Assembly (NCBI GenBank): GCA_028285065.1
Contig: JANQQG010000199.1
Location: 1 to 32,041, forward strand
Direction of reading: 5' to 3'
From: Phycisphaerales bacterium
GTDB lineage: Bacteria; Planctomycetota; Phycisphaerae; Phycisphaerales; UBA1924
Length of the DNA: 32,041 nt
A program made the position numbers and the translations under genes. A model generated the notes under the pieces. It saw only the letters and a program-made list of their open reading frames with translations. It was not told the origin of the DNA and made no database searches. Of this stretch, positions 8,734 through 18,786 are shown in pieces; position 1 is the stretch's first letter; every line of letters starts with the position of its first letter.

Positions 8734-10662
8734 ATGTGCGCGATTGCCCACCACGCCAAGTGTGTCGTCGTATTGGTCGCCGCCCTCGCCTTCCCCGCCG
8801 CCGCCCAGGTCCAGGTCGGTGCCGGCGAGAACCTCGATGACACGTCGCTCAATGCGGGGCTGTTCATGGGACAGCCCTTCATTCTTGCACCGGGCACCGC
8901 GTTCGAGATCAACAACGCCGGAACGATCGGCAATCAGGTCGGCGCCTTCGACGTCGACTTCGCTGGCTCCACCGTCAACATCAACGACGGTGGTGCGTTC
9001 ATCGTCAACTCCGGCGGCGCCCGGGCCGAGGGGCTCATCCTCAACTTGCTCTCGGGCGCCTCGACTGACGGTCGCATCAACACGACCGACTGCGAACTCA
9101 ACATCCTCGGCGGCACCGCCGGCGCCCCAGGCGGGGTTTCCCACGCATTCGACCTGACGAACTGCGTGCTCGACATCCAGGCCGGGCGTGTCGGACGCGT
9201 CACCGGTTTCACGAACAACATGATCACGGTATCCGGCGGCACGGCCGAGCAGCTTCTCGGGCAAGACGCCACCATCGAGATCAGCGGCGGGATCGTCCGC
9301 AGCCTCGTCATCTCCAGGAGCACTCTCAATATCTCGGGCGGCTTCACAGAACGCGTGTCGCTCGGGTTCCAAACGCCGACCACCGTGACCGGTGGCGTCG
9401 TCGGGACCGAGCTCCATATCGCGCACACCGACATCATGACGCTCCACGCGACGGATCTGCGCCTCGACGGTGTCCCGATCGCGGATCTCGACGCCGGGCT
9501 CCCTCCCAACGCGACATTCACATGCACGCTCGCCGACGGAGCGGTGCAAATCATCGCCGAACACGTCGAGTCACACATCGTTCCGGACGCGATCACGATC
9601 GCCCCGATCAGCCTCGGGCCCATCGACACAGCGCCGATCGATCTCGCAGCCGGCATCGGGCCGCCCGGTCTCCGACCAGGCCAGATGCTCACGCTCAGCG
9701 GAACCGGCGAACTCCCGGACGCCTTCGGTGCCGCTCACGCCACGCTCGCGATCCACGCGGGTCAGGTCGGTGACTGGCTCCGTACCAGTTTCACCGACGT
9801 CACGATCGCGGGCGGCGTCATTGGTGACAACTTCCGAGCGCTCCCGGGAAGCAACGTGACCGTCAACGGCGGCGTCATCGGAAGCCAGTTTCAGGCCTTC
9901 CACTCGACCGTCGATCTCAACGCCGGGCATGTCGAGCAAGTCGTCGCCGGCCCGGGCGCCACCGTCAACATTGGTGCTGGCGCAACCACAGGTGCTTGTC
10001 ACGCTGGCAACGGCGGCACCTGCAATGTCGCGGGCGGTAGTCACGCCGAGGGAGGCACCTCGGCAGGCGGACTCCTCAACATCATGGACGGGACGTTCGG
10101 TCAGCCCGGCCAAGGGGGCCTACTCAGGGTCTGGGGCGGAAAGACAACGATCAGCGACGGGACGATTCACCTCCGGCTCGAGGCCATGTCTGGCGGCGCC
10201 ATCGACATCTCCGGCGGCACGATCGCCGGCGGGATCAACGCATGGGCGTCCAGCGCGATCAACCTCTTCGTCCAAGAGGCCAGCCTCGACAACGTGCCGA
10301 TGACGCTCACCCCGGGCGCCCCGACCATCATCGCGGACCGTTCCTCCGCTCCGCTGCGCGTCACGCTCGCCGATGGTTCGCCATTGGAGTTCACGCCGCG
10401 TGCGGCCCCCACGGTCGGCACTGATGAGGAGTTCATCTCACCCAGCGCGGTGCTGACGATCACCCTTGTCGAGACCTGCCCTTGCGATTGGAACACCGAC
10501 CTGTTCCTCAATGACACCGACTTCTTTGATTGGGTCAACGACTACTTTGCGCAGAGCGGGCCGCGGGAGGAGTCGGACTTCAACGAAGATGGATCCGAGA
10601 ACGCGCAGGACTTCTTCGACTTCGTCAACTGCTTCTTCACGCCGCCCGCCGTGTGCGAGTGA
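8734..10662 (+). CDS. Exported beta-solenoid-like repeat protein with C-terminal Cys-bracketed dockerin-like module
   Basis: Signal peptide ending AAAQ; repeats such as VTIAGGVIGDNFRALPGSNVTVNGGVIGSQF; C-terminus CPCDWNTDLFLNDTDFFDWVNDYF...CFFTPPAVCE; start ATG 8734 has an upstream purine-rich RBS. Confidence 0.85.
   Translation: MCAIAHHAKCVVVLVAALAFPAAAQVQVGAGENLDDTSLNAGLFMGQPFILAPGTAFEINNAGTIGNQVGAFDVDFAGSTVNINDGGAFIVNSGGARAEGLILNLLSGASTDGRINTTDCELNILGGTAGAPGGVSHAFDLTNCVLDIQAGRVGRVTGFTNNMITVSGGTAEQLLGQDATIEISGGIVRSLVISRSTLNISGGFTERVSLGFQTPTTVTGGVVGTELHIAHTDIMTLHATDLRLDGVPIADLDAGLPPNATFTCTLADGAVQIIAEHVESHIVPDAITIAPISLGPIDTAPIDLAAGIGPPGLRPGQMLTLSGTGELPDAFGAAHATLAIHAGQVGDWLRTSFTDVTIAGGVIGDNFRALPGSNVTVNGGVIGSQFQAFHSTVDLNAGHVEQVVAGPGATVNIGAGATTGACHAGNGGTCNVAGGSHAEGGTSAGGLLNIMDGTFGQPGQGGLLRVWGGKTTISDGTIHLRLEAMSGGAIDISGGTIAGGINAWASSAINLFVQEASLDNVPMTLTPGAPTIIADRSSAPLRVTLADGSPLEFTPRAAPTVGTDEEFISPSAVLTITLVETCPCDWNTDLFLNDTDFFDWVNDYFAQSGPREESDFNEDGSENAQDFFDFVNCFFTPPAVCE
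10477..10659 (+). other. 61-aa C-terminal double EF-hand (dockerin-like) module
   Basis: CPCDWNTD..LNDTD....SDFNEDGSENAQD...CFFTPPAVCE; aligns without gaps to those at 13970-14152 and 15763-15945. Confidence 0.75.
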
Positions 10663-10860: not shown

Positions 10861-11550
10861 TTACCCGTTCCGCCTGCGGCGTCCGCCGACGAGCGCGCCA
10901 CCGAACAGCAGCGATGCCACTGCGCCCGGGGCCGGCACGTTCGCCACGAGCCACTCGATCGACTCCTCGTGCGCCTCTTCCTCATCGCCGTTGTTGAAGG
11001 AGATCCAGAAGCTGCGCGAGTCGTCCAGCCCGCCGTTGTCGTCGACAAGGCGCATCTGTAGGGCGAAGATGCCGACGTCGTCACTGCCGAGGACGAAATC
11101 GAGGTGGGTGTCGAACGCACCACCGATGTTCTCGAAGACGAACCCGGCGACGTCGGACCCGTCGGAGGACGTGGTGACCGACGGGCCGAACTCGAGCTCG
11201 GCGTCCATGGTGTTCGTCGAGTCGACGAACTCGGTGCCGTTCCACTCGCGCAGACGCCCCTCGAGCACGAAGGAAAGGGCGACCCCATCGAGCCCGACGG
11301 CAGCGACGCCATCGGTGTAGAAGCCGGGGTCATCGATGCGCCCGCCGGGGCCCATCTCGACGCCGAAGACGCGCTCCGGCTCGGCGAAGATCTCGACGCC
11401 GCCGACCTCTTCGACGAGCCACGTGCTGAACGCGCCGCCGATGTTCTGCAAGCCGATGTCACCCTCGTGGGCGAGCGCCGGCGCGGCGCTGAGTCCGACG
11501 GCGCCAGCGGCACCAAGAAGCGAGAGTCCAGTGGTCTTGAAACGAATCAT
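10861..11550 (-). CDS. Exported protein with PEP-CTERM-like (VPAP-TM-RRRR) C-terminal sorting tail
   Basis: Signal peptide ...SAAPALA|HEGDIGLQ; C-terminus NVPAPGAVASLLFGGALVGGRRRRNG. Confidence 0.85.
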   Translation of the reverse strand: MIRFKTTGLSLLGAAGAVGLSAAPALAHEGDIGLQNIGGAFSTWLVEEVGGVEIFAEPERVFGVEMGPGGRIDDPGFYTDGVAAVGLDGVALSFVLEGRLREWNGTEFVDSTNTMDAELEFGPSVTTSSDGSDVAGFVFENIGGAFDTHLDFVLGSDDVGIFALQMRLVDDNGGLDDSRSFWISFNNGDEEEAHEESIEWLVANVPAPGAVASLLFGGALVGGRRRRNG

Positions 11551-11592: not shown

Positions 11593-12426
11593 TCAGTTGC
11601 ACAAATCGTTCGCGAAAAACGCATTCACGAAATCAAAGAAATCCTGGTCGTTGGTGAACCCGTCGGCGTTGAAGTCCGCCGGGCCGGGTCCGAAGAAGGC
11701 GTTGACGAAGTCGAAGAAGTCCTGGTCGTTGGAGAATCCGTCCTCGTTGAAGTCCGCCGGGCAATCGTTCCCGGCGAGGTTGTCCTCGACCCACGCCGCC
11801 GCGTCGTCGAGCTGATCCGAGAGCCCCGCGCCGCCTTCGTCCTGGACGAAGATGATCCAGAACGGATCGGAACGGCTTGCGGCTGCCGGATCGACGAACA
11901 GCTCAAGCTCGAGCAGGTACAGCCCATCGGGCGCTGGTGCGTCCAGGCGGTACCCGGGATGCTCGTGCAGGCGACCATCGATCGGATCGGTCAGGCCGAT
12001 CGTCAACGACGGCCCGGCCGACGGATCGGCCGGATCCGAGGCCGGTGTGATCGCGTCGATCCCGTCCTGACGCACGGTCATGGTCACCGGCGCCAGCGTG
12101 TCGAAGTCCGATCCGTCCCAGACACGCAGGGCCGCGCGGATCGTGACACCGACGACGACGCTCTGCGGGAACTGATCCGGAAGGGAATCGAACCCGGGGT
12201 TGAAGGTAACGCCGGGGACGATGTCGCCCAGCTCGGTCCCGTTGGTGAAGACGCGCTTCGGGAACGTGAGCGCGCCGTCGGTGAACCCGCCGATGACGAG
12301 CGCCCCGTCTTCGGCGCGAGTGATGACGTCGACGGGATGGGTGCCGCCCTGTGCCAGCGCACTGGACGCAGGCGCGAGCAGCACCGCCAGGAGCGTGATC
12401 GAGCGCAGGTGCTTGCACATGCGCAT
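11593..12426 (-). CDS. Exported paralog of the 10861-11550 product, ending in two tandem EF-hand/dockerin-like repeats
   Basis: MRMCKHLRSITLLAVLLAPASSALAQ signal; RVF...NPGF...ALRVWDGSDFDTL...DPFWIIF...WVEDNL; tail CPADFNEDGFSNDQDFFDFVNAFFGPGPADFNADGFTNDQDFFDFVNAFFANDLCN. Confidence 0.85.
   Translation of the reverse strand: MRMCKHLRSITLLAVLLAPASSALAQGGTHPVDVITRAEDGALVIGGFTDGALTFPKRVFTNGTELGDIVPGVTFNPGFDSLPDQFPQSVVVGVTIRAALRVWDGSDFDTLAPVTMTVRQDGIDAITPASDPADPSAGPSLTIGLTDPIDGRLHEHPGYRLDAPAPDGLYLLELELFVDPAAASRSDPFWIIFVQDEGGAGLSDQLDDAAAWVEDNLAGNDCPADFNEDGFSNDQDFFDFVNAFFGPGPADFNADGFTNDQDFFDFVNAFFANDLCN
11623..11760 (-). repeat. Two-copy tandem repeat (78-bp period) encoding DFNxDGFxNDQDFFDFVNAFF
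   Basis: Copies at about 11623-11682 and 11701-11760 share long identical stretches (e.g. TCCTGGTCGTTGG, GTTGAAGTCCGCCGG). Confidence 0.85.
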
Positions 12427-12464
12427 GAGTGGGTCCTTTCTCTGAAACCCGGACGCAAGCGGAA

Positions 12465-13319
12465 TCATGGCGCAAAGTCCGGGATGAAACGGTTGGTTTC
12501 CTTGTCCGTGTAGACGTCCTCGAAAGTCAGCGTCTCTGCGTGCCCATCGAGGAACCCGTAGTTGGAGCGCGACCGGAACGAACGCGCCGGCCCGCCGTGG
12601 GCGTCGATCGCGCACTGACTGGCCGCGATCGCCGGGGCGCTCTCGGCGCCGAAGATCCCCCACTGCTCGACATGGACGTGATCACTCGTTGCGAACTGCT
12701 CGGAGGCCGAGTCGTTGCCCTCCGTGATCATCAAGAAGTGCACGGTCGTGCTCGGATTGGGCACGGCCGCCATCTTCATCCATGGACCCAGGAACCGGGA
12801 CGAGTCGTCCGGGTCCCGCACGTTCGGCCTTGCGAACCGCGTGAGCGCGTTGTTGAGCCCGTAGCTCGTCCACCGCGCGATGTTCGACGGCGGTGGTCCG
12901 CCCGACGCCAACGCCTCGATCAACTCATCCAGCGTGGCGCCGTCGCTCTGCCCACCGAGTGAACGAGGCCAGAACGGGCTGTCGTCCACCGGCGAACGCA
13001 GCACCAACTCGTTTCCGTAGTACTCGCCGAGCGTGATCGGCCATGCTCGATCGGGACTGGCAAGGCCGCCATGGCCCAACCCGGCGTCGATGAAGAACTC
13101 ATCGTGGTCGTCGAGGTAGAGGGTGTGAGCGATCTCGAGCTGGCGGATCTGGCTCAGGCACAGCGCCGTGCGCGCAGCCTGACGCGCCTTGCCGAGCGAC
13201 GGCAAGAGCAACGACACAAGCAACGCGATGATCGCGATCACGACCAACAGCTCGATCAGCGTGAAACCACGCAGAGCCGAGACGCCGGGCGTGCCACGAG
13301 CGCATGGATGTGCGCGCAT
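12465..13319 (-). CDS. Type II pseudopilin-like protein (prepilin-type N-terminal cleavage/methylation domain)
   Basis: [35 protein letters not shown]-terminal [14 protein letters not shown] motif typical of planctomycete pseudopilin-like proteins. Confidence 0.92.
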
Positions 13320-13966: not shown

Positions 13967-15733
13967 CTATTGGCATTCAACAGGCGGGTTGAAGTAGCAG
14001 TTGACGAAGTCGAAGAAGTCCTGGGCGTTCTGGGAGCCGTCGGCGTTGAAGTCTGACCCTCCGCGCGGCCCGCTCTGCCCGAAGTAGTCGTTGATCCAGT
14101 CGAAGAAGTCCGTCGCGTTGAGGAACGAGTCGTTGTTCCAGTCGCAGGCACAGGGCGCGAGCGGATCGACCACCGCGAGTGTCAGTGTCGCGTCGACGTC
14201 GACGAAATCGGTGGTGAAGGCCTCGTCCGGATTGAGGAGCAACTGGAACGGCGTGCCGTCGAGAAGCGTGCCGGACAGTGTCTGCCCGTCGCGCTCGCCC
14301 ACGACGTACGGCTCTCCGGCGACAAGCCCGGTGATCGGCGTGCCGTCCAGGGAGAAGCCGCTGCCGACGATCTCAAGCTCGGCGAGTCTGTCCACGCCGA
14401 ACCGCGCGACCTGCCCGCCCGAGAGCACCGTCCTGGAGGAGAAGCGGAGGTCGAGAAACCCGATGTCCCCTCCCATGACGTCGGCCGCGCCTGGCCCACC
14501 AACGAGGAGCGTGTCGAACGCCCCGCCCGAGATCGATGCGGGAACTGACACCGACGCGCTGTAGATCTGACCTCCCGAGATGCTCACGCCGCCACTCATC
14601 TGGAAGGCAGTGACCTGAGACACCTCGCCGCCCGTCATCGTCAGGTACGCGCCGTCGACGAGACTGACGCTCGACGCGAGGCCCCCGGCGACGTTGATCT
14701 GGCTGTAACGCCCTCGGATGCTCCCCGCCGAGCCGCCGGTCAGCGTCAGGGTGCCCGCGGTGCTCCGGAACGCCTGGCCGAGCGTCCCGCCGGACATCGA
14801 GACGTCGGATCTGACGGCGTTCGAGAACTCGCCAACGCTGCCTCCCTCGAAGTTCAACGTTGCGCCGAGTGAGACAAATCCGTTCGGGACCGTCGCGTCG
14901 CCGGTGAGTGTCAGGGATTGACCGGGCGAGAGGCTGCCCGGCCCCATCCCTGTCGAGAGCGTGACTGGCGTGAGCTCGGCCGGTGGCGGAGCAGCCTCGA
15001 CGAGGAGGACCGTGCCGTCAAGCTCGGCCGAAGTACTCGGATCGACCACCAGGACATCCCCGCCCTCAAGGACACAGGAGAAGACGCTCGTCCCTGGGTT
15101 GCTGTCCAGAGTCGAGATGGGGACGCCATCAAGTCGGAAGTCGGTCCCGCGGATGGTCAGTTCGCCCTCGTTGGCCAGGCTCGTGATCCGGCCTCCGGCA
15201 AGCTCCACAACCGCCGGTTCGAGGACCTCCAGGATGGCAATCTCACCCGCCGAGATGCCGGCCGTTCCCTCCCACACCTGGACCTCATGCGTGGTCCCGC
15301 CCGTGACCGTCAGTGTTCCAGGCGAACCACGCGTTGCATGCGAGATCACCCTGTGCATGCTCCCGCCTGAGATCGACAGCACCCCGCTCGATCCGATCGT
15401 CCCGAGCACCCCACCGAGGATGTTGACCTCGCTGCCGGGAAATCCCTGGAACCACCACCCCACGCTGCCGGCGTAGATGTTCACCTCGATGTTCGTCTCC
15501 GAGCCGTTCGACGAGCCGGCCACGAAGTTCTGGGCAATCGCCCCCCCCTCCCATAGGTTCAGCTGTGTGTCGCCACCGATGGGACCCGCGATCGACGCCA
15601 CATCCTGCGGCACGTTGATCACCGTCGTGAAACCCGACGGATCCGACTGCGCAAGTGCAGCGCTCGCCGAGAGGCTCGCGCCGGCACAAAGTGCAAGGAC
15701 ACGGACGCGACGACCCACAGAGCGTGCATGCAT
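13967..15733 (-). CDS. Exported beta-solenoid-like repeat protein with C-terminal dockerin-like module
   Basis: Signal then AQSDPSGFTTVINVP; ISGGxxG repeats; C-terminus CACDWNNDSFLNATDFFDWINDYF...CYFNPPVECQ; RBS AAGGAGG 6 nt before ATG 15733. Confidence 0.85.
   Translation of the reverse strand: MHARSVGRRVRVLALCAGASLSASAALAQSDPSGFTTVINVPQDVASIAGPIGGDTQLNLWEGGAIAQNFVAGSSNGSETNIEVNIYAGSVGWWFQGFPGSEVNILGGVLGTIGSSGVLSISGGSMHRVISHATRGSPGTLTVTGGTTHEVQVWEGTAGISAGEIAILEVLEPAVVELAGGRITSLANEGELTIRGTDFRLDGVPISTLDSNPGTSVFSCVLEGGDVLVVDPSTSAELDGTVLLVEAAPPPAELTPVTLSTGMGPGSLSPGQSLTLTGDATVPNGFVSLGATLNFEGGSVGEFSNAVRSDVSMSGGTLGQAFRSTAGTLTLTGGSAGSIRGRYSQINVAGGLASSVSLVDGAYLTMTGGEVSQVTAFQMSGGVSISGGQIYSASVSVPASISGGAFDTLLVGGPGAADVMGGDIGFLDLRFSSRTVLSGGQVARFGVDRLAELEIVGSGFSLDGTPITGLVAGEPYVVGERDGQTLSGTLLDGTPFQLLLNPDEAFTTDFVDVDATLTLAVVDPLAPCACDWNNDSFLNATDFFDWINDYFGQSGPRGGSDFNADGSQNAQDFFDFVNCYFNPPVECQ
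13970..14152 (-). other. 61-aa C-terminal double EF-hand (dockerin-like) module
   Basis: Gap-free alignment with 10477-10659 and 15763-15945; four conserved Cys. Confidence 0.75.
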
Positions 15734-15759: not shown

Positions 15760-18700
15760 CTACTGACATTCAACAGGCGGCGCGAAGAAGCAACTGATGA
15801 AGTCGAACCAGTCCTGGTCGTTCTCGAACCCGTCGTCGTTGAAGTCCGACTGCCCTTGCGGGCCGCTCTGCGCAAAGAAGTCATTCACCCAGTCGAAGAA
15901 GTCGGTGTCGTTCAGGACGTCGTCTGCGTTCCAGTCACAGGCACACGGGGGCGGTGGGCCAACCAGAGTGATGGTCACCGTTGCGTCCGGGTCGAAGTAG
16001 TCTTGGCTCGCGCTGTCCTCGGGACGCAACTCGAAGCTGAAGTCTGAGCCATCCGCGAGCACGCCGGACAGGGTGATCGAACGGTCAGTGATGGTCAGCA
16101 TTCCCGCACCGTCGAGCCCCTCAACCGGGACGCCGTCGATGAAAAACGTGCGCCCAGAGATGTTGAAGTTCGTCTGCGGACCGACCTCGATGAACGACCC
16201 GATCGACCCGCCCGAAAGGTTCACCGTGCTCCCGGAGTAAGCGCCGAACCACGGGCCGATCGTCCCCCCGCTGATGTCGAGGACGCTCCCGTCGTGCACA
16301 TGGAAGAAGTCGCCGATCGAGCCGCCGTCGACGGATACGCTCGACCCTGCGGCTTCGAGGCCGCTCCCGATCGTTCCGCCCTCGATGACGAGCGACGCGT
16401 TCGTGCAGCTGAAGTGATCCGCGAGCGTCGCGTCGCCGCCGATGTGCAGCGACTGCCCCGTGCGCAGTCCCGTTGTTGGGCCCGCTCCGGTGGTCACGCT
16501 CATCGGCGTCAGATCGGGCGAGGGGACGGGCACGCTTGTGAGCACCAAGGCATCTCCTAACCAATCGCTCGCCGGAGAGGAGAAGACGAAAGGCGAGCCA
16601 TCGGCGAGCGTGCCGGTGAAGAGGTACCCGGCCCCGAAGGACTCAACGGGAGGCGCCCCAGTCACGGGCGCGCCGTTGAGCATGAACTCACTCCCGATCA
16701 GCGTGACCTCGCTGCCCGACTCCGCCCAGAGACGCCCGACCGAACCACCGGAGATCTCGACGCGGCTGCCGGTCCCCGCGCGGTGCACGTCGGCCACGGC
16801 CCCACCCGAAATCACGATCGTGCTGTCGGCCTCTGGCCTCACACGGCTAGGGACTACTCCACCCTCCACGTTGAGCGTGCTGCCCGGATTTGCGACGATG
16901 GCCGACAACCCCGGCACCGGGACGATCGCTCCCCCCGAGATCGTCATCTCGCTCCCCGGCAAGAGCGTGACATCCGCACCCAAGGACCCCCCGGCGAGTT
17001 CCACGGTGCTCCCCTCGTACACCCGAAGGCCGGCGCCAACGGTCCCGCCCGAGATGGTCACATCCGAGCGAAGGGCCCTGAGATCGGCCCCGACGCTCCC
17101 GCCCTCGATGTTGAGCGTCGCATCGACGGCGGCGAAACTCGGATGAAGCGTTGCATCCCCCCCGAGCGTGAGCGACTGACCGACCCACAAGCCCCTGGGG
17201 CCCTCGCCAGTCAGCACCGTCATCGGCGTGGTGTCGATCGGCGGGAGCGGCATGGCCACGATGTTCGTGACCGGCTGCAACGGGGACGAGCTGCTCACGT
17301 CGTCAAAGAACACGCTCCCGTCCGCGAGAACGCCCGTGAGAAGGCCACTCAACGAGAACCCAAGCAGACCATTGGGCAAGGGGGAGCCGTCGAAGAAGAA
17401 GGAGCCTTCGAGAGTCAGATCGGCTGAAGCTACCCCGGAGACTCCACCGACCGAGCCGCCCCGGACCAGCACAGTACTGTCGGACGCGGCTCGAATGCCG
17501 CCTACCGAGCCGCCGGTGATCGTCACTTCGCTCCCATCGAACGCAACGGCGCCGACGCCCACCCAACCACCCGAGATCGCGACCTGACCATCGAACCAGG
17601 CGCGCGTGTCGACCTCGCCACCGGTGATGTTGAGAAAACTGTTCGGCTTCGTCTCGATGCCGTTCACCTGACCCCCCGCGATGGTCAGCGTCGCGCCAGG
17701 GTGCACGTACGTTTTTCCGACGGCCCCACCGGTCACGATCGCGGTGCTCCCGTTGACCACGTCGAAACCCTCGCCGACCGTTCCGCCCGAGATCGTGACG
17801 TCTGACCGGAGCACCTTGAGCCCGTCGCCGACGCTTCCACCGGCGATGTCCAGAGCAGCATCGATGGTCCCGAAGTTCCGGCGCAACGTCGCGTCCCCGC
17901 CGAGGGTCAGCGACTGTCCCGCGCGGAGTCCGGCGTCCGGACCGGGACCGGTCATTATGGTCATCGGCGTGGTGTCGATCGGCGGGAGCGGCCTGTTCAC
18001 GATCGTCACGCTCCCGGGCGCGAGCGCATCGCCCGCATGACCTGTCACGATGAACACGCTCCCGTCCACGAGAACACCCTCGAGAACCGATGGGATCAAG
18101 ATCTCGCCCAGCAAGGTCCCGTCGGGGACGGCAACACCGTCGACGGCGAACTCGCCTTCCAAGGTCAGGTCCGCGGCATCTGTTATTCGAACGCCCCTGC
18201 CCACACTGCCCCCGGTGATCGAGCCGGAACTGGAAATGTCCGCGTCGATCCCGATGGATCCGCCCGAGAGGTGCAGCGTGCTTCCCGAGTCTGCCCGAAA
18301 CTCGTCTCCGATGGTGCCTCCCTCCATGTTGAGGGTTGCGACCGGACCCAGCCTGAAGTCGGAGCCAACACGCCCGGCGAGGAGGTTTGCCACGCCATCG
18401 ACGCGCGTGCGCACCCCGATCTCGCCGCCGTAGACGTTGAGCACACCTGCCAAGCCTGCGTTCCGCCCGATCGATCCGGAGAAGAGGTTTACGACCCCGA
18501 GCGCATGCATACGAAACTGCGGGCCGACGACGCCTCCGAGCACATTCAACTCCGAGGTCGAGCCCGAACTCTCAAATCGCGCCATCTCAACGCGATCCCC
18601 GGTGCTCCCCCAGGGGTACACGTTCAGCTGTGTGTCTGGGCCGAGTTGCTGGCGGTCTTCCGGTGGATCATCGGACGGCACGTTGATCACCGTCGTGAAC

Positions 18701-18786
18701 CCCGAAGGGTCCGACTGCGCGAATCCCTGGCCGTAGCCCGCCGCGACCCCGACCACACCGACCAGCACGAACGTCCGGGCAGCCAT
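15760..18786 (-). CDS. Large exported modular beta-solenoid-like repeat protein with C-terminal dockerin-like module
   Basis: ~1008 aa; FAQSDPSGFTTVINVP N-terminus; three PxxTPMxxxTGxGPxxGLRxGQSLxxGGDATL modules each followed by ISGGxVG repeats; strong SD GGAGG upstream. Confidence 0.87.
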   Translation of the reverse strand: MAARTFVLVGVVGVAAGYGQGFAQSDPSGFTTVINVPSDDPPEDRQQLGPDTQLNVYPWGSTGDRVEMARFESSGSTSELNVLGGVVGPQFRMHALGVVNLFSGSIGRNAGLAGVLNVYGGEIGVRTRVDGVANLLAGRVGSDFRLGPVATLNMEGGTIGDEFRADSGSTLHLSGGSIGIDADISSSGSITGGSVGRGVRITDAADLTLEGEFAVDGVAVPDGTLLGEILIPSVLEGVLVDGSVFIVTGHAGDALAPGSVTIVNRPLPPIDTTPMTIMTGPGPDAGLRAGQSLTLGGDATLRRNFGTIDAALDIAGGSVGDGLKVLRSDVTISGGTVGEGFDVVNGSTAIVTGGAVGKTYVHPGATLTIAGGQVNGIETKPNSFLNITGGEVDTRAWFDGQVAISGGWVGVGAVAFDGSEVTITGGSVGGIRAASDSTVLVRGGSVGGVSGVASADLTLEGSFFFDGSPLPNGLLGFSLSGLLTGVLADGSVFFDDVSSSSPLQPVTNIVAMPLPPIDTTPMTVLTGEGPRGLWVGQSLTLGGDATLHPSFAAVDATLNIEGGSVGADLRALRSDVTISGGTVGAGLRVYEGSTVELAGGSLGADVTLLPGSEMTISGGAIVPVPGLSAIVANPGSTLNVEGGVVPSRVRPEADSTIVISGGAVADVHRAGTGSRVEISGGSVGRLWAESGSEVTLIGSEFMLNGAPVTGAPPVESFGAGYLFTGTLADGSPFVFSSPASDWLGDALVLTSVPVPSPDLTPMSVTTGAGPTTGLRTGQSLHIGGDATLADHFSCTNASLVIEGGTIGSGLEAAGSSVSVDGGSIGDFFHVHDGSVLDISGGTIGPWFGAYSGSTVNLSGGSIGSFIEVGPQTNFNISGRTFFIDGVPVEGLDGAGMLTITDRSITLSGVLADGSDFSFELRPEDSASQDYFDPDATVTITLVGPPPPCACDWNADDVLNDTDFFDWVNDFFAQSGPQGQSDFNDDGFENDQDWFDFISCFFAPPVECQ
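15763..15945 (-). other. 61-aa C-terminal double EF-hand (dockerin-like) module
   Basis: CACDWNADDVLNDTDFFDWVNDFFAQSGPQGQSDFNDDGFENDQDWFDFISCFFAPPVECQ. Confidence 0.75.
17219..17251. repeat. 33-bp exact direct repeat, copy 1
   Basis: GTCATCGGCGTGGTGTCGATCGGCGGGAGCGGC, identical to 17960-17992, 741 bp apart (in frame). Confidence 0.9.
17960..17992. repeat. 33-bp exact direct repeat, copy 2
   Basis: Identical to 17219-17251; encodes the LPPIDTTPMT junction of two modules. Confidence 0.9.

Follow-up and report, generated by a model that had tools for sequence, protein, structure and literature searches.

The window, by which we mean the whole 32,041-nt stretch of Phycisphaerales bacterium DNA that was analysed, encodes three paralogous proteins (P1, P2 and P3) that are probably secreted and surface-exposed and that would each consist of independently folding β-solenoid beads. 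We consider it fairly probable that they are capped β-solenoid surface proteins, arranged as beads on a string and serving as an adhesin or a matrix scaffold of adjustable length. The source genome assembly amounts to 2.8 Mb in 262 contigs and is 87% complete.

Table 1. Features of the window, with the basis for each assignment (residue numbers refer to P1).
Feature	Position	Strand	Basis
P1, 1008 aa	15763-18786	minus	all motif strings quoted in the earlier note found in the translation
P1 signal peptide (residues 1-24, MAARTFVLVGVVGVAAGYGQGFAQ)	18715-18786	minus	hydrophobic N-terminus, read from the sequence without a signal-peptide program
P1 N-terminal unit M1 (residues 25-266)	17989-18714	minus	homology to M2 and to the N-terminal unit of P2
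P1 module M2 (residues 267-513)	17248-17988	minus	N-cap HMM 68.6 bits; module alignment
P1 module M3 (residues 514-753)	16528-17247	minus	N-cap HMM 75.3 bits; AlphaFold2 model
P1 module M4 (residues 754-947)	15946-16527	minus	N-cap HMM 64.9 bits
P1 dockerin-like C-terminal tail (residues 948-1008)	15763-15945	minus	two DxNxDxxxNxxD loops
P2, 600 aa	13967-15769	minus	N-terminal unit, one module (14153-14986) and 61-aa tail (13970-14152)
P3, 661 aa	8677-10662	plus	N-terminal unit, one module (9613-10476) and 61-aa tail (10477-10659)
GspE-type ATPase (type II secretion / type IV pilus system), upstream of P1	18950-20680	minus	Pfam T2SSE, 429 bits
GspD-type secretin, upstream of P1	20721-23591	minus	Pfam Secretin, 134 bits
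Pseudopilin-like gene, downstream of P1 and P2	12465-13319
Protein with two dockerin-like loops	11593-12663		NF041540, 18.5 bits
Small protein with PEP-CTERM motif	10861-11550		PEP-CTERM, 16.2 bits (cut-off 16)

Modular architecture of the three paralogues

Each of the P1 modules M2 to M4 opens with an N-cap (PxxTPM...GQSLT..GDATL), continues in coils of 17-19 residues and closes with an F-x-DG-x-P...L-G-x-L-x-DG-S-x-F cap. When module pairs were aligned and set against 100 composition-preserving shuffles each, z reached 34 for M2-M3 (109 of 229 residues identical), 33 for M2-M4 and 30 for M3-M4. Their lengths are 247, 240 and 194 aa (M4 measured before the tail), M4 having fewer coils and a C-terminal type of cap that ends in ATVTITLV. 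Ahead of them stands M1, a diverged homologous unit (z 15.7 against M2 and 21.5 against the N-terminal unit of the 13967 gene, P2), made up of an INVP/TQLNV type N-cap, then coils, then a FAVDGVAV...LEGVLVDGSVF cap. Over 21 proteins or fragments, coil spacing had its mode at 19 residues (100 cases), followed by 18 (47), and no tandem repeats were found at the DNA level in the genes of the window.

An earlier note on this DNA had described P1 as three units of ~240 aa with repeats of 18-20 residues, each unit closed by an FxxDGxPx...LxGxLxDGSxF cap. The strings it quoted do begin at residues 267, 514 and 754, the coils are regular and the closing cap is present on every module; the lengths are not uniform, however, the spacing is 17-19 residues, and to the three modules with z of at least 30 a fourth, diverged unit has to be added at the N-terminus. 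The same note had assigned single copies to the 13967 and 8734 genes (P2 and P3), and their modules indeed align with P1 M3 in the shuffle control (z 33 and 37, respectively), but both proteins have the N-terminal unit as well, which brings the count to two each, against four in P1. This N-terminal unit of all three proteins, and the 61-aa two-loop tail with which they all end, were absent from the note. A stretch of the P1 signal peptide (...AQSDPSGFTTVINVP) is also found in the P2 gene, with 88% DNA identity over 52 nt. P2 shares 10 nt with the end of P1, and an alternative start of P2 at 15733 is plausible, as is one at 8734 for P3.

Predicted fold and competing readings

Modelled alone with AlphaFold2 from ten aligned modules, M3 was predicted with high confidence to be a capped β-solenoid (pLDDT 88.8, pTM 0.86), in keeping with the solenoid fold proposed beforehand. 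The model has short N-cap strands at residues 9-41 and regular solenoid strands at 44-190; beyond a short linker, the LxGxLxDGSxF cap is made by strands 209-214 and 219-223. For full-length P1, pLDDT lay at about 80-93 over much the greater part of M2 and M3 and pTM at only 0.53, so that this model does not fix the arrangement of the beads.

Fold searches of the PDB with the full-length model and with the module yielded no match below E 0.001, nor did a search of viral structures, and the P1 sequence had no match in the PDB. The best weak matches of the module were mainly β-helices (FwdC, TibA, yeast Awp adhesins and Ag43b, with TibA and Ag43b above E 0.1), a module profile matched Antigen 43 weakly (E 0.001 over 150 positions), and the full-length model gave weak matches to autotransporters, PL6 alginate lyases and pectate lyases. 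As far as the models go, the general β-solenoid fold class is supported and a particular structural relative is not.

These weak lyase matches, and another to the polysaccharide-lyase-like protein 4peu, speak for modules that are polysaccharide-active enzymes or carbohydrate-binding solenoids (β-helices like those of polysaccharide or pectate lyases) acting on algal or matrix glycans. We find this unlikely: no lyase family of Pfam or NCBIfam was matched, and both a profile match to the PL6 and PL1 β-helices and their catalytic residues are absent from the module. The coils of lyase β-helices usually have 22 or more residues, and those seen here, at 18-19, are below that length. Moreover, the ten-module alignment is invariant at P, G, Q, F, A and the cap's D-G pair; along the coils, neither acidic nor basic residues are conserved, nor is there a conserved polar or charged cluster such as a catalytic site would have.

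Since solenoid-rich prediction extends over most of P1, the beads and the N-terminal unit might instead form a single continuous solenoid, with the N-caps and C-caps only decorations and the units not independent. This seems quite improbable to us, given that a module modelled in isolation folds confidently and has ends that are not solenoid, that junctions are Pro-rich and inter-module confidence is low, and that proteins with a single unit exist among the relatives (L052, L054 and L056). Less probable still, in our estimate very much so, is a ligand- or ice-binding array in which flat faces with rows of Thr/Ser or Asn bind ice or crystal; the short regular coils are rich in T/S, which speaks for it, but no TxT row recurs on one face when read by eye, and the distant fold match to the ice-binding protein 4nuh (E 9.5) is at noise level and not significant. 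Finally, low-complexity glycine/serine drift without real module structure, for which one could argue in that repetitive composition can inflate alignment scores, is refuted by the z of 30 or more that M2-M4 pairs retain against composition-preserving shuffles, by the recurrence of the non-repetitive 52-aa N-cap in other genera at E down to 1e-26 and by the confident single-module fold. We rate all of these readings below that of P1 as a string of capped β-solenoid beads.

Distribution and growth of the family

No family in Pfam or NCBIfam covers the module, and its relatives were traced with a profile of the 52-aa N-cap, built from a 22-row alignment and found once per unit. Its distribution is sparse: the N-cap is present in 9 of 163 genomes of the family, in 13 of 397 sampled genomes of the class Phycisphaerae (strong matches in families f1, f6, f8 and f19) and in 4 of 392 sampled genomes of the phylum, all inside the order. 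At least four families of the class contain homologues in which the module boundaries recur, and the number of units ranges from one to four per protein, which bears out the earlier suggestion that length varies by gain or loss of whole modules.

Among proteins with at least two internal modules, 9 of the 24 such modules find their best match in their own protein and the remaining 15 elsewhere; with shuffled labels (2000 trials, a control that does not preserve phylogeny) the mean was 1.3 and the maximum 7. Three within-protein pairs, L041.1/.2 (99/99), L049.1/.2 (95/91) and L053.1/.2 (97/83), are supported in a tree that as a whole is weak. Repeated whole-module duplication thus appears to shape the family, middle modules often being nearest to adjacent modules of their own protein. 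The final module of P1 (M4) and that of L041 are reciprocal best matches (P1.3 and L041.3) and look positionally orthologous, and the data fit a history in which middle modules were amplified and the first and last units on either side stayed conserved. By eye, two relatives (L055 and L057) have two N-terminal-type units in tandem ahead of the internal modules, and N-terminal units may also be able to duplicate. Two further relatives, L048 (G015:C157) and L049 (G015:C153), lie at contig ends and are apparently halves of one gene broken in the assembly.

Recent module duplication in P1 was ruled out by its codons. In the stretches M1-end/M2 and M2-end/M3 the same codon is used at 64 of 144 identical residues, about 0.44, and 0.44 is expected from codon usage; because the two agree, the duplication is judged to be old, with synonymous sites saturated. 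Growth at the level of coils looks more recent in L058, a single-unit relative with a 57-bp (19-codon) tandem array of 12 copies at 25-671, than the module duplication in P1.

C-terminal tags and gene neighbourhood

The 61-aa tail shared by P1, P2 and P3 has the consensus CxCDWNxDxxLNDxDFFDW...DFNxDGxxNxQDWFDF...C and about 70 matches in the source genome. Like a dockerin, it has two Ca-binding DxNxDxxxNxxD loops, and a helix, predicted at low confidence in the full-length AlphaFold2 model, comes after each of them. Positions 1, 5, 9 and 12 of loop 1 are invariant in 31 copies and position 3 is conserved in 30 of the 31, and in 29 copies of loop 2 the ligand positions are invariant for all but one residue. 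Scores stay below the curated dockerin cut-offs, at 12.7 bits against 22.9 for PF00404 (P2) and at 12.2-15.8 bits against 29 for NF041540 (dockerin_GC; window proteins and tail). No match to cohesin PF00963 was found in the 87%-complete source genome; a cohesin that has diverged, or that lies in the absent 13%, could have escaped this search.

Relatives end differently. PEP-CTERM-like ends were seen by eye in L041, L044, L045, L046, L050, L052, L054, L105 and L109, with no hit at E 0.1 or better when L041, L044, L045, L047 and L105 were scanned with PEP-CTERM models. GC-type dockerins end L042 and L110, both scoring over the NF041540 cut-off, and, by eye, L053 and L055; other dockerin-like tails were read in L049, L051, L057 and L104, and a dockerin-like tail together with a PEP-CTERM-like end in L047, L056 and L108. 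Judged from these ends, the C-terminal tag is interchangeable on one solenoid body. Such tag swapping suggests that the proteins are probably located at the surface or in the matrix, and one body with differing surface tags would point to an extracellular role independent of any single anchoring system.

PEP-CTERM-like and dockerin-like tags occur side by side in the source genome, which also encodes an exosortase (G000:C20:12100-12879). Elsewhere in it, about nine secreted proteins that bear the tail are clustered at locus L111 (G000:C211:25500-45000), and most of them have DDSxCAxxDTIDEWxxYT-type repeats. Within the window, a small protein has a PEP-CTERM motif just above cut-off and a separate one has two dockerin-like loops (Table 1).

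The GspE and GspD genes directly upstream of P1 raised a link to type II secretion, which was rejected because this adjacency is not a conserved one: when the surroundings of twelve homologous loci were searched by tblastn for GspE, GspD, the M24 peptidase and the RNase, none of the four turned up, and there was just one weak pseudopilin match. A pseudopilin-like gene is also present in the window.

Discussion

Each bead of P1, P2 and P3 would run from a ~45-residue N-cap through a stack of ~19-residue ISGGxVG coils to a two-strand cap (LxGxLxDGSxF) and a Pro-rich linker. Because every bead has both caps, the fold could survive the duplication or loss of a whole bead, and a bead could also gain coils internally. 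The signal peptide would export the protein and the C-terminal tag would hold it at the cell surface or in the matrix, the tag being a dockerin-like EF-hand pair here and a PEP-CTERM-like or another dockerin-like one in relatives. The likeliest job would be that of a non-catalytic adhesive or matrix-scaffolding rod, its length set by the number of beads and coils and perhaps itself a selected property.

Long surface proteins of repeated solenoids are a familiar idea. The autotransporters Ag43, AIDA-I and TibA have a long β-helix of short repeated coils with SGG-type motifs, which the predicted solenoid of P1 may resemble, and self-association of Ag43-type passengers is described in PMC6668479. 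Membership of P1 in the Ag43-type family fails because P1 has no autotransporter β-barrel (Pfam), its C-terminus being the dockerin-like tail; relatives, too, end in dockerin-like or PEP-CTERM-like tags, unlike Ag43 and AIDA-I, and the chain of P1 is cut into separately capped modules, unlike the Ag43, AIDA-I and TibA passengers. The best fold match of the module, to the GXGXG right-handed β-helix of FwdC and glutamate synthase (5t5i_C, probability 0.85, E 0.08), shares its Gly-rich short coils, but these are cytoplasmic enzyme subunits without such caps, the TM-score is only 0.38 and there is no sequence match. GC-type dockerin (NF041540) and PEP-CTERM proteins are tag classes and not a solenoid family. 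A parallel for the tail is the planctosome of freshwater Planctomycetes, a cohesin/dockerin proposal in which planctomycete dockerins have no cellulose-degrading role (PMC6461901). There as here dockerin-like domains occur on planctomycete proteins, though the cargo is peptidase there and solenoid here, and unlike the planctosome the source genome gave no PF00963 cohesin.

A bolder reading, which we regard as doubtful, is that the solenoid proteins form an undescribed bead-like, doubly capped surface family of Phycisphaerae with exchangeable tags; it would imply that the tail, present on about 70 proteins, serves to sort and anchor them independently of any cohesin, as an equivalent of PEP-CTERM. 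For the beads themselves, a family that is missing from Pfam and NCBIfam gains a testable domain definition in the 52-aa N-cap, which occurs once per module, and it offers two levels of length change, by whole capped modules and by single coils. The swapping of tags on one body, in turn, provides a natural comparison for the role of the dockerin-like tails that are abundant in planctomycetes without apparent cohesins.
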